Position numbers and translations under genes: made by a program
The notes under the pieces: model-generated
Database searches by the model: none
What the model was told of the DNA's origin: nothing
What the model saw: only the letters and a program-made list of their open reading frames with translations
In this document: one piece after another, positions 10,319 to 47,932 of the stretch
How positions within the stretch are numbered: the first letter of the stretch is position 1
Layout: each line of letters starts with the position of its first letter
Assembly: GCA_031285775.1 (NCBI GenBank)
Contig: JAITVN010000013.1
Span: forward strand, 1-64,000
DNA: 64,000 bases
Reading direction: 5' to 3'
Origin: Streptococcaceae bacterium
GTDB taxonomy: Bacteria; Bacillota; Bacilli; Lactobacillales; Streptococcaceae

Positions 10319-10827
10319 GTGTGCTCGCTTCAAAGCGGGTGCGCTTCACATCTTGTCTAACTGAGTTCAGCGCACCTGAAGCTAGGAAATTAGATATTTT
10401 TAGAACCTGCCATTCGGCAGAACCAAAAAATCCTAAATTTCTACGCTTCAAAGCGGGTGCGCTTCACATCTTGTCTAACTGAGTTCAGGACGCCGAAAGC
10501 TAGAAGATTAGATAAATTGAGAACCTCCCCTATGGGGAGAACCTCAATTTCCTTAATCTTTACGCTTCCAAGCGGGCGTCCTTCACATCTTGTTAATTGA
10601 GTTCAGCGCACCTGAAGCTAGGAAATTAGATATTTTTAGAACCTGCCATTCGGCAGAACCAAAAAATTCTAAATTTCTACGCTTCAAAGCGGGTGCGCTT
10701 CACATCTTGTTAATTGAGTTCAGGACGCCTGAAGCTAGGAGATTAGATGAATCTAGAACCTGCCCTTTTGGCAGAACCTAGATTCCCTAAATCTCTACGC
10801 TTCAAAGCGGGCGTCCTTCACATCTTG
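10319..10827. repeat. Array of four ~114-bp imperfect palindromic units plus a truncated half unit
   Basis: Units at 10361-10474, 10479-10593, 10597-10710, 10714-10827; half unit ~10319-10354; shared ends (C/T)TGAGTTCAG...CTTCACATCTTG. Confidence 0.9.
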
Positions 10828-10842
10828 GCGAAAGGAGGGGAA

Positions 10843-11691
10843 ATGGTACAAAAAGCGATTGGCCCGCTGCTTAAAGAGCGGCGAACTAAGCTGGATTGGA
10901 GTTTAGACAAGGCCGAGAAGCAGACTTCCATCAAAAAAATTTACATTAGCGCGCTTGAGACTGGCAATATTGGGATTTTCCCTGGTCCTTTCTATGTGCG
11001 GGCTTACCTCAAGCAATATGCGCAAAGACTAGAACTTGACGTAGATGCGATTCTTGAAGCCTATGACAAGGGTGTACCTGTTGAGGTTGAAGGCCCTTTT
11101 GAGGATACAGGCAACTATCGATTTATTCGACCGGACGAGCGGGAAATCCTCCTCGGAGAAGAAGACACTGATGAAGAGCCGAAAAACTGGTTCCAGCGCT
11201 ATATGCCAGTTGTTTTATTATCATCATTCGCAATTATTATTTTAGCGGCGGTGGCTCTTATTGTTGTTCTTAATTATCCGAGAGAGTCAGCTGTTTCGCC
11301 CGACAATTACAGCACTTCTCAGAGCTCGGTCAGCTCCAGCCAGTCTTCATCAGATTCTTCTAGCTCTTCAAGTGCCGCAACAAGCTTGAGCCACTCGACG
11401 GATGGTGCCACGATTCTCGTAAAATCCGGCACAAAATCTGTTGTCCTGACCTTTACTTTAAAAACTGGGATCGCGACTGCAACTGCCAGCGTTTCAGGTA
11501 CTGTCAGTCAGACGGCAAATTTGACTGCAAGCCAAAACACTGCTGCAATCACTCTTGAAGAGAATGTGGCCAAGACTACTTTAACGTTGAGCGATTACAA
11601 GTCACTCAACATTCAGATTAATGGCCAGGCGCTTGATTTATCTGATGTTCCGAACCCGCCGAATACACTTACTTTGGAAATAACTTACTAA
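10843..11691 (+). CDS. rodZ: RodZ-like HTH/TM/DUF4115 protein
   Basis: MVQKAIGPLLKERRTKLDWSLDKAEKQTSI HTH, TM, Ser-rich linker; SD AAAGGAGGGG before ATG 10843. Track start 10747 lies inside the repeat array. Confidence 0.8.
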   Translation: MVQKAIGPLLKERRTKLDWSLDKAEKQTSIKKIYISALETGNIGIFPGPFYVRAYLKQYAQRLELDVDAILEAYDKGVPVEVEGPFEDTGNYRFIRPDEREILLGEEDTDEEPKNWFQRYMPVVLLSSFAIIILAAVALIVVLNYPRESAVSPDNYSTSQSSVSSSQSSSDSSSSSSAATSLSHSTDGATILVKSGTKSVVLTFTLKTGIATATASVSGTVSQTANLTASQNTAAITLEENVAKTTLTLSDYKSLNIQINGQALDLSDVPNPPNTLTLEITY

Positions 11692-33462: not shown

Positions 33463-33538
33463 TACGTGTCTTTTCTACACAAAGTAATGAATTTGAATAC
33501 CGCCCAGTCGAGTTTATTACTTTGTATAGAAACACGTA
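33463..33538 (+). promoter_or_regulatory. Long imperfect hairpin at the 5' end of the predicted pnp leader
   Basis: TACGTGTCTTTTCTACACAAAGTAAT paired with ATTACTTTGTATAGAAACACGTA. Confidence 0.75.
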
Positions 33539-33542
33539 AATA

Positions 33543-33893
33543 ACAAGATGTGAGGTGCGCCCGTTTAGAGGTTGAAAAATAAGAGAAAACTGGCAGGGGA
33601 GGCTTGCCTCACCGAAGTTTTCACTTATTTATCAACATCTGGCGCTCCGAACTCAATTTCACAAGATGTGAGGTGCGCCCGTTTAGAGGTTGAAAAATAA
33701 GAGAAAACTGGCAGGGGAGGCTTGCCTTACCGAAGTTTTCACTTATTTATCAACATCTGGCGTACTGAACTCAATTTCACAAGATGTGAGGTGCGCCCGA
33801 TTGGAAGTTGAATAATAAGAGAAAACTGGCAGGGGAGGCTTGTCTCACCGAAGTTTTCACTTATTTATCAACATCTGGCGCTCCGAACTCAGT
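33543..33893. repeat. Three tandem units (118-bp period) of the hairpin repeat family, core subtype 2
   Basis: Units begin ACAAGATGTGAGGTGCGCCC at 33543, 33661 and 33779 and end CTGGCG...GAACTCA. Confidence 0.9.
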
Positions 33894-33911
33894 TCAAAAT
33901 TTAAGGAGAAC

Positions 33912-46921: not shown

Positions 46922-47791
46922 ATGTATGCAAATATCACAGAATTGATTGAGCAAGCCAAAAAAGTTGGTTCGGTGGCAGAAGTGGCCATTCAAACCGAAA
47001 TTGAAGTGACAGGGCGCTCACGCGAAGATATCATTGAACTAATGGAACGCAATCTTCAGACCATGAAAGATTCGATTGCCAGCGGTTTAAAAGGAAAAAA
47101 GTCACTGACTGGACTGACAGGCGGCGATGCACTGAAGCTTGATAATTATATCAAGTCTGGAAAATCTATTTCGGGTGCCGGCATTATGACTGCCGTGCGT
47201 AATGCCTTGGCTGTCAATGAAGTTAATGCGCAAATGGGGCTAATTTGTGCCACACCAACAGCTGGTTCAGCAGGAACCCTGCCTGGCGTATTGATGCTGG
47301 CCATTGATAAATTAGGGCTGACACATGAAGAGCAGTTGAACTTTCTCTTCACAGCTGCTGCATTCGGCTTGGGAATTGCGAACAATGCCACAATTGCTGG
47401 AGCAGAAGGCGGTTGTCAGGCTGAAGTCGGTTCTGCATCGGCCATGGCTTCTGCAGCCCTTGTCACCGCGGCCGGCGGAAGCCCTGAGCAGGCTGAGCAA
47501 GCGATTTGCTTAGTTCTTCAGAACATGCTCGGATTGGTTTGCGATCCAGTAGCAGGGCTTGTAGAAGTTCCTTGCGTGCACCGTAACGCCTTGGGTTCAT
47601 CGCAGGCACTTGTCTCAGCAGATATGGCCTTGGCTGGCATCAGTACCATCTTCAATGCGGACGAAGTCGTATCAGTGATGTACAAAGTCGGGAAGAATCT
47701 CCCGGCCATCTACCGCGAAACTGCAGATGGCGGACTGGCTCAGACACCAACAGGCCGCGCAGTAATGGAAAAAATCTACGGCGGAAAATAA
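46922..47791 (+). CDS. sdaAA: L-serine dehydratase, alpha subunit
   Basis: TPTAGSAGTLPGVL, EGGCQAEVGSASAMASAA, CDPVAGLVEVPCVHRN. Confidence 0.95.
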   Translation: MYANITELIEQAKKVGSVAEVAIQTEIEVTGRSREDIIELMERNLQTMKDSIASGLKGKKSLTGLTGGDALKLDNYIKSGKSISGAGIMTAVRNALAVNEVNAQMGLICATPTAGSAGTLPGVLMLAIDKLGLTHEEQLNFLFTAAAFGLGIANNATIAGAEGGCQAEVGSASAMASAALVTAAGGSPEQAEQAICLVLQNMLGLVCDPVAGLVEVPCVHRNALGSSQALVSADMALAGISTIFNADEVVSVMYKVGKNLPAIYRETADGGLAQTPTGRAVMEKIYGGK

Positions 47792-47904
47792 CAAGATGTG
47801 AAGCGCGCCCGCAAAGAGACGTAGAAATTTAGGGATTTGAGGTTCTGCCGAAAGGCAGGTTCTCGAATCATCTAATTTCCTAGTCTCTGGCGCGCTGAAC
47901 ACGA
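47791..47904. repeat. Single unit of the hairpin repeat family
   Basis: ACAAGATGTGAAGCGCGCCC...GGCGCGCTGAAC; core GATTTGAGGTTCTGCC GAAA GGCAGGTTCTCGAATC. Confidence 0.88.
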
Positions 47905-47932
47905 TCTCATTCGTCTTTCACAATAAATATAG

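Follow-up and report, generated by a model that had tools for sequence, protein, structure and literature searches.

Small structured repeats such as BOX, RUP and EFAR have usually been described species by species. REP/BIME repeats are palindromic, intergenic elements of 20–40 bp, often found by stop codons; they bear a GTAG-type tag and are associated with a Y1 transposase. EFAR elements are palindromic miniature elements (42–650 bp, from 16 sequence types), also intergenic, and have reportedly been found within stem-loops, parts of whose stem persist on either side of the insertion. Efa-1 is a 163-bp double hairpin present in 65 copies in E. faecalis (PMC2267715). BOX elements (67–637 bp) are modular, intergenic and strongly folding, have terminal inverted repeats, occur in around 100–120 copies and are concentrated in certain species of a group (S. 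pneumoniae, S. mitis, S. suis; PMC3049150). RUP of S. pneumoniae, nearly confined to pneumococcus, is a ~107-bp stem-loop with terminal inverted repeats, present in 110 copies in one genome (PMC3049150).

The repeats analysed here, identified between yfmH and rodZ in a 64,000-nt stretch (the window) of contig JAITVN010000013.1 of a Streptococcaceae bacterium (GCA_031285775.1), resemble each of these in part. They are like BOX in their intergenic location, about a hundred copies, variable internal modules and strong fold, like RUP in being short stem-loops with about a hundred copies per genome, and like REP/RAYT elements in being palindromic, intergenic and often located by stop codons. However, the ends of BOX and RUP are inverted and those of the present family are not; RUP has one conserved sequence and is not modular, whereas here the arms vary freely. 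Unlike in BOX, what varies in the present element is its stem, and it varies in a compensatory way; internal loops hold the modules, and the family occurs in several families of Lactobacillales. Its modular build (module M1 in 0–3 copies and M2 in 0–1, see below) is as in BOX, judged without sequence comparison to boxA, boxB and boxC. REP/RAYT elements are tied to a Y1 transposase, whereas Y1 genes do not track copies of the present family. The family works like BOX and EFAR and, by the features tested, is not BOX, RUP or REP. The preliminary description of the locus had likewise recognised none of these three, and the ends (not those of BOX or RUP) and the lack of an Rfam match agree with it.

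EFAR/Efa-1 is probably the nearest described relative. The repeats might be new members of a described family, with EFAR of Enterococcus faecalis the foremost candidate and streptococcal BOX another: both are built alike, from modules, Efa-1 may be the same as EFAR, and relatives of the element were found in another Lactobacillales family with genomes of up to 4 Mb. Such membership nevertheless appears unlikely. BOX, as well as RUP, differs in its terminal inverted repeats, and the stem-loop target of EFAR was not seen, complementarity between the flanks of the present element being below that of shuffled pairs (mean longest complementary run 2.78 vs 3.13 ± 0.15 shuffled). Rfam searches of window elements, long forms and homologues (24 further loci) gave no family match on the elements, a match to SSRC8_2 in one homologous locus (L171) lying beside the element rather than inside it. 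No similar DNA was found in named phage and plasmid collections with a window unit, a streptococcal pair or units from other families. No paper describing the family was found in a literature search, most subscription papers being outside its reach, and the family is apparently uncatalogued.

The array between yfmH and rodZ

One 5′-truncated and four complete units are arranged head-to-tail at 10326–10827 (TRF: period 118, 4.3 copies), with spacings of 118, 119, 117 and 118 in a repeat search (Table 1). The four-unit array of the preliminary description is thus real, with units of 115–116 bp after refinement of their limits from the common ends, and all of the arm and tip sequences given there are found in the window. 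The alternation of subtypes noted there was also seen, units 1 and 3 being 98% alike and units 2 and 4 85% alike; it is the result of local duplication or of repeated insertion at one target. Each single unit folds at −40 to −50 kcal/mol. The location between yfmH and rodZ was agreed as well, with a full-length RodZ profile match that scores under the strict cut-off (144.7 vs 375 bits); the closest named relative of the YfmH protein is from Lactovum miscens (70% identity), which places the window in a Lactovum-like member of the Streptococcaceae. The array is not confined to this spacer: the family to which it belongs is dispersed and order-wide, and the rodZ array is only one of its sites. 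Within the window, the same ends recur with different arms at two more places: three units in reverse orientation at 33544–33894 and one at 47792–47906.

Table 1 Copies of the repeat and adjacent signals in the window.
Feature	Position	Strand	Support
5′-truncated copy, last ~30 nt CGCTTCAAAGCGGGTGCGCTTCACATCTTG, opens array	10326..10355	+	Sequence and repeat search
Unit 1, 115 bp, outer arms AGCGCACC/GGTGCGCT	10359..10473	+	CM E=3.2e-34; in alignment A1
Unit 2, 116 bp, outer arms AGGACGCC/GGCGTCCT	10477..10592	+	CM E=1.4e-32
Unit 3, 115 bp, near-copy of unit 1	10595..10709	+	CM E=1.3e-33; 98% identity to unit 1
Unit 4, 116 bp, related to unit 2; 3′ end directly 5′ of rodZ Shine-Dalgarno (SD)	10712..10827	+	CM E=2.6e-35
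rodZ SD region and ATG (10843), GAAAGGAGGG	10830..10845	+	Sequence
Unit of reversed array, other inner arms, 3′ end beside TAA	33544..33658	-	TRF; CM E=2.8e-24
Second unit of reversed array	33662..33776	-	CM E=8.6e-21
Third unit of reversed array, 5′ end 17 nt from pnp ATG (33912)	33780..33894	-	CM E=6.8e-22; PNPase profile
Solitary unit, 3′ end directly after stop codon of L-serine dehydratase alpha-subunit gene (47789-47791)	47792..47906	-	CM E=5.9e-30

Anatomy and modules of the element

All copies have the ends AAYTGAGTTC...TCACATCTTR, which are nearly invariant, are not inverted copies of each other and flank one long imperfect hairpin. Following AAYTGAGTTC are a variable outer stem (~8 bp), a second stem (commonly TGAAGC/GCTTCA), the stem GGAAATTAG/CTAAATTTC, then unpaired GAT opposite CC and, innermost, an inner stem, an AGAACC/GAACC loop and a tip hairpin. 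The returning 3′ arm, unlike the 5′ arm, has a 4-nt bulge before TCACATCTTR.

Copy lengths (n=128 paired ends, in the stretches fetched) cluster at 28, 115–119, 164–182, 216–239 and 278–390 bp. The 28-bp copies have lost the hairpin and consist of both ends joined across a collapsed stem (AACTGAGTTC-GGCGCGCC-TCACATCTTG), while longer copies, which reach 390 bp, have structured modules in fixed internal loops. Module M1 (AAGCAGAC-hairpin-GTCGCTTT-CCCC..GGGG) occupies three internal sites (0–3 per copy) and M2 (~115 nt, with several hairpins) a fourth (0–1 per copy); in congeners an M2-like module is also present reversed on the 5′ side. Two long forms (336 and 339 nt) fold 8.2 and 8.8 SD below dinucleotide shuffles. 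The M1 core was found in only 5/199 Streptococcaceae genomes, from three genera, and its reversed pattern gave no match; in one of them (G125) it lies at the same internal site as in the source genome. At L216:1370–1700, in another genome (G093), M1 lies within a differently built repeat, and a stretch there beginning GAGGTTGTAGATGGA seems to resemble pneumococcal BOX. Modules may be shared between repeat families.

Copy number and distribution

The source assembly is fragmented (119 contigs, ~90% complete), with arrays possibly collapsed, and copies were sampled by searches. A covariance-model scan of the genome, proposed in the preliminary description, gave at least 136 matches (150 candidates scored), and a window unit gave 77 BLAST matches. 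The exact 5′ end AAYTGAGTTCRG occurs 108 times in this genome and the reversed pattern, used as a control, not once, so the hairpin family is represented far more often than expected by chance. Exact 5′ ends number 10, 4, 3 and 1 in congeners; the near-complete congener G001 has one, and no match to the covariance model was obtained in it.

Matches to the covariance model (R1; E-values are rough, calibration having been short) were found in 154/199 Streptococcaceae genomes and in 8/11 genera, with 89, 85, 70 and 61 in single genomes of two genera in fuller scans. Those inspected in other genera have the same ends as in the source genome and are therefore not chance hairpins. Named carriers are Lactococcus reticulitermitis and L. 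chungangensis; the genus contributing most genomes of the set (g5) is presumably Streptococcus. In other Lactobacillales families the interior GGAAAAAAGATRAA...TTTCCTATTTTTC is kept and the ends are partly different (e.g. TATCTAGCT...GCTTTTA). One covariance model takes in repeats from other Lactobacillales families as well as from Streptococcus, Lactococcus and a Lactovum-like genus, so that how they evolve and are mobilised becomes a single question for study.

Covariation and the level of pairing

The compensatory arm changes of the preliminary description were borne out with more copies. Among 66 copies from the source genome, 29/34 pairs have changes on both sides, with a covariation score of 0.448 compared with 0.167 for shuffled and at most 0.128 for slid partners. 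For 68 distinct matches from other genera, in an alignment that was fitted to the structure and so leans toward pairing, 33/34 pairs have changed on both sides and the score is 0.722 (0.200 shuffled, at most 0.130 slid). Covariation this strong, together with conserved unpaired positions, is what might be expected of a structured RNA whose folding is under selection and which, from the 5′ UTR (by the SD) or from just behind a stop codon, regulates translation in cis or stabilises the mRNA; the fixed position beside SD sequences or stop codons in several genera and a copy before dnaJ common to three streptococcal genomes would also fit. In structured RNAs, G-U is ordinarily tolerated much better than A-C. 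Here G-T mismatches are not in excess over A-C (42 vs 41 of 2,177 cells and 40 vs 32 of 2,099, in two alignment sets with one G-T-rich pair omitted), and this equal rarity suggests that pairing is kept on DNA. Selection on RNA is also difficult to reconcile with orientation (antisense to the gene whose stop codon adjoins ~52 copies, sense to the gene whose SD adjoins ~32), with enormous copy-number differences between congeners and with neighbours (rodZ, pnp, serine dehydratase and dnaJ among those identified) that have no common function, making it an improbable source of the covariation.

The suggestion of selection on a folded RNA or DNA in the preliminary description is accordingly narrowed: the RNA part is not upheld, given the mismatch counts and near-perfect palindromes, while coupling of the arms at the DNA level fits better, suggesting a folded DNA substrate or mutual correction of the arms. 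The copy at L105:1268–1385 is almost perfectly palindromic in its inner half (~30 bp per arm), probably through template-switch correction, and suggests that arm-to-arm correction does happen. Taken further, the copies could be neutral palindromes, in which template switching within a strand or gene conversion keeps the arms alike and folding is not selected. The near absence of one-sided changes, the L105 palindrome, a fully paired tip in another copy (L194) and the 28-bp copies with the entire hairpin deleted all suit this reading. Correction is not the whole story, as the mismatched spots (GAT opposite CC, the AGAACC/GAACC loop and the 3′-side 4-nt bulge) survive across genera, while blind correction would erase them; the ends are also nearly invariant, and neutral homogenisation is accordingly disfavoured and seems quite doubtful as an explanation. 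With hundreds of copies and near-pure compensatory change, the family provides a test case for DNA-level arm coupling versus RNA selection.

Mobility

Direct repeats of 6–8 nt starting with TTR flank copies of the element (length 7 with one mismatch allowed, 12 vs 3.35 expected; length 8, 5 vs 0.88 expected; 0/400 shuffles), and TTAAAGTG flanks one solitary copy (L079) at either end. This signal is clear once TTR is counted within the duplication and weak without that, 58 outer flanks alone giving a modest excess (4-nt match 5 vs 1.1, p 0.0045), and many of the flanking repeats lie inside arrays, where unit duplication would also yield them. Within arrays, adjacent units of quite different length are separated by one array-specific spacer (TTATTT, TTGTTTT, TTATTCT etc.), as expected from repeated hits on one target, although duplication of unit plus spacer would also produce it. 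The element is absent from the yfmH-rodZ spacer in Lactovum miscens and two Streptococcaceae assemblies. In Lactococcus chungangensis (L055:5313–5459) the yfmH-rodZ spacer holds a copy that, like the array in the window, ends flush with the rodZ SD; the other Lactococcus loci examined are without a copy. The same spacer has probably been hit twice. Together, copy-number swings, empty orthologous sites and TTR direct repeats point to a mobile element.

The elements are dispersed and intergenic, with flanking duplications that are significant overall and stem in part from arrays, and they lack terminal inverted repeats, which MITEs in general share with an autonomous element; no coding copy was found among paired ends up to 900 bp apart. 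They are likely to be non-autonomous, hairpin-shaped mobile elements forming a modular, MITE-like repeat family. A recombinase acting in trans would recognise the folded ends and lower stem and insert a copy at a TTR-containing target, leaving a 6–8-nt direct repeat that starts with TTR. As the target would then be present beside the element, the same site could be hit again, and repeated hits would line up unlike copies head-to-tail, separated by a single array-specific spacer, as is the case before rodZ. Pairing would be maintained on DNA, as a folded single-stranded or cruciform substrate, presumably assisted by template-switch correction, and the arms could therefore drift together and gain or loss of modules be tolerated. 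Against mobility as the explanation, no mobilising enzyme or filled/empty strain pair within one species was found, IS200/Y1 genes do not track copy number, and some streptococcal copies, upstream of dnaJ, look orthologous across species, which could mean a host function.

The preliminary description had proposed a check for an adjacent transposase or RAYT. The only IS200/IS605-type Y1 transposase gene found in the source genome is less than 1 kb beyond the window (L152:1468–1947; C67:64933–65289), and no element ends were found near this locus. Its proximity, with the hairpin shape and ends that are not inverted, might indicate REP-like elements moved by an IS200 or REP-associated tyrosine (Y1) transposase. 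Flanking duplications are not expected from Y1 transposases, however, and presence of the gene is not correlated with copy number: five copy-rich genomes (G089, G085, G102, G045 and G284) have no Y1 gene, while another (G027) has five Y1 matches and no copies. A Y1 transposase was therefore rejected as the mobiliser, and movement of this type is very improbable. Integron attC sites, which are also variable hairpins beside stop codons, seem an unlikely match, the present elements being scattered by housekeeping genes and their ends lacking an attC core.

Position of the 3′ end and neighbouring genes

In the source genome, 62 arrays have usable neighbours (assigned by a simple ORF rule). The 3′ end of 44 of them, compared with 22 expected under uniform insertion, falls −3 to +6 nt from a stop codon or SD boundary; for the 5′ end the number is 11. 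In arrays that keep a spacer of 40 nt or more, the 3′ end is flush in 23/34 and the 5′ end in 0/34 (3.3 expected). In 18 cases the TAA stop codon is supplied by the terminal TTA of the element itself, on the opposite strand, and some other copies adjoin a −10 box (TATAAT) or a terminator. Arrays from other Lactobacillales families gave 12/16 flush at the 3′ end and 0/16 at the 5′ end with crude gene calling; in congeners and in genus g9 no difference between the two ends was seen with a simple gene caller. Insertion, or loss of adjacent DNA, was likely tolerated up to the next functional signal, so that copies stop flush with a stop codon, SD or −10 box, and any effect on rodZ expression would be incidental or secondary. 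This exact stop at the start and stop signals of core genes poses a sharp question about insertion mode, and possible effects on the 5′ and 3′ UTRs of rodZ, pnp and dnaJ can be tested.

A broader scheme, offered tentatively and in our view possible rather than probable, would have all of these repeats belong to one ancient Lactobacillales-wide family. Its enzyme would read a folded DNA (or RNA) hairpin instead of inverted repeats, with arms, ends and modules interchangeable if the fold is kept and modules common to genera, and insertion would be polar, the 3′ end stopping exactly at the next translation or transcription signal.

In three streptococcal genomes (L176, L178 and L179 in G084, G073 and G008) a near-identical copy lies directly before dnaJ, one base from the ATG, and has possibly been domesticated. 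At two loci (L165 and L198) copies are antisense and lie just past the apparent 3′ end of a 23S rRNA gene, with the 3′ end of the element near the rRNA. In the window, a long inverted repeat (ACAAAGTAAT...ATTACTTTGT; 33470–33540), preceded by a promoter-like TATAAT, is located upstream of pnp, from which it is now separated by the three-unit array, and could be a pnp leader hairpin.
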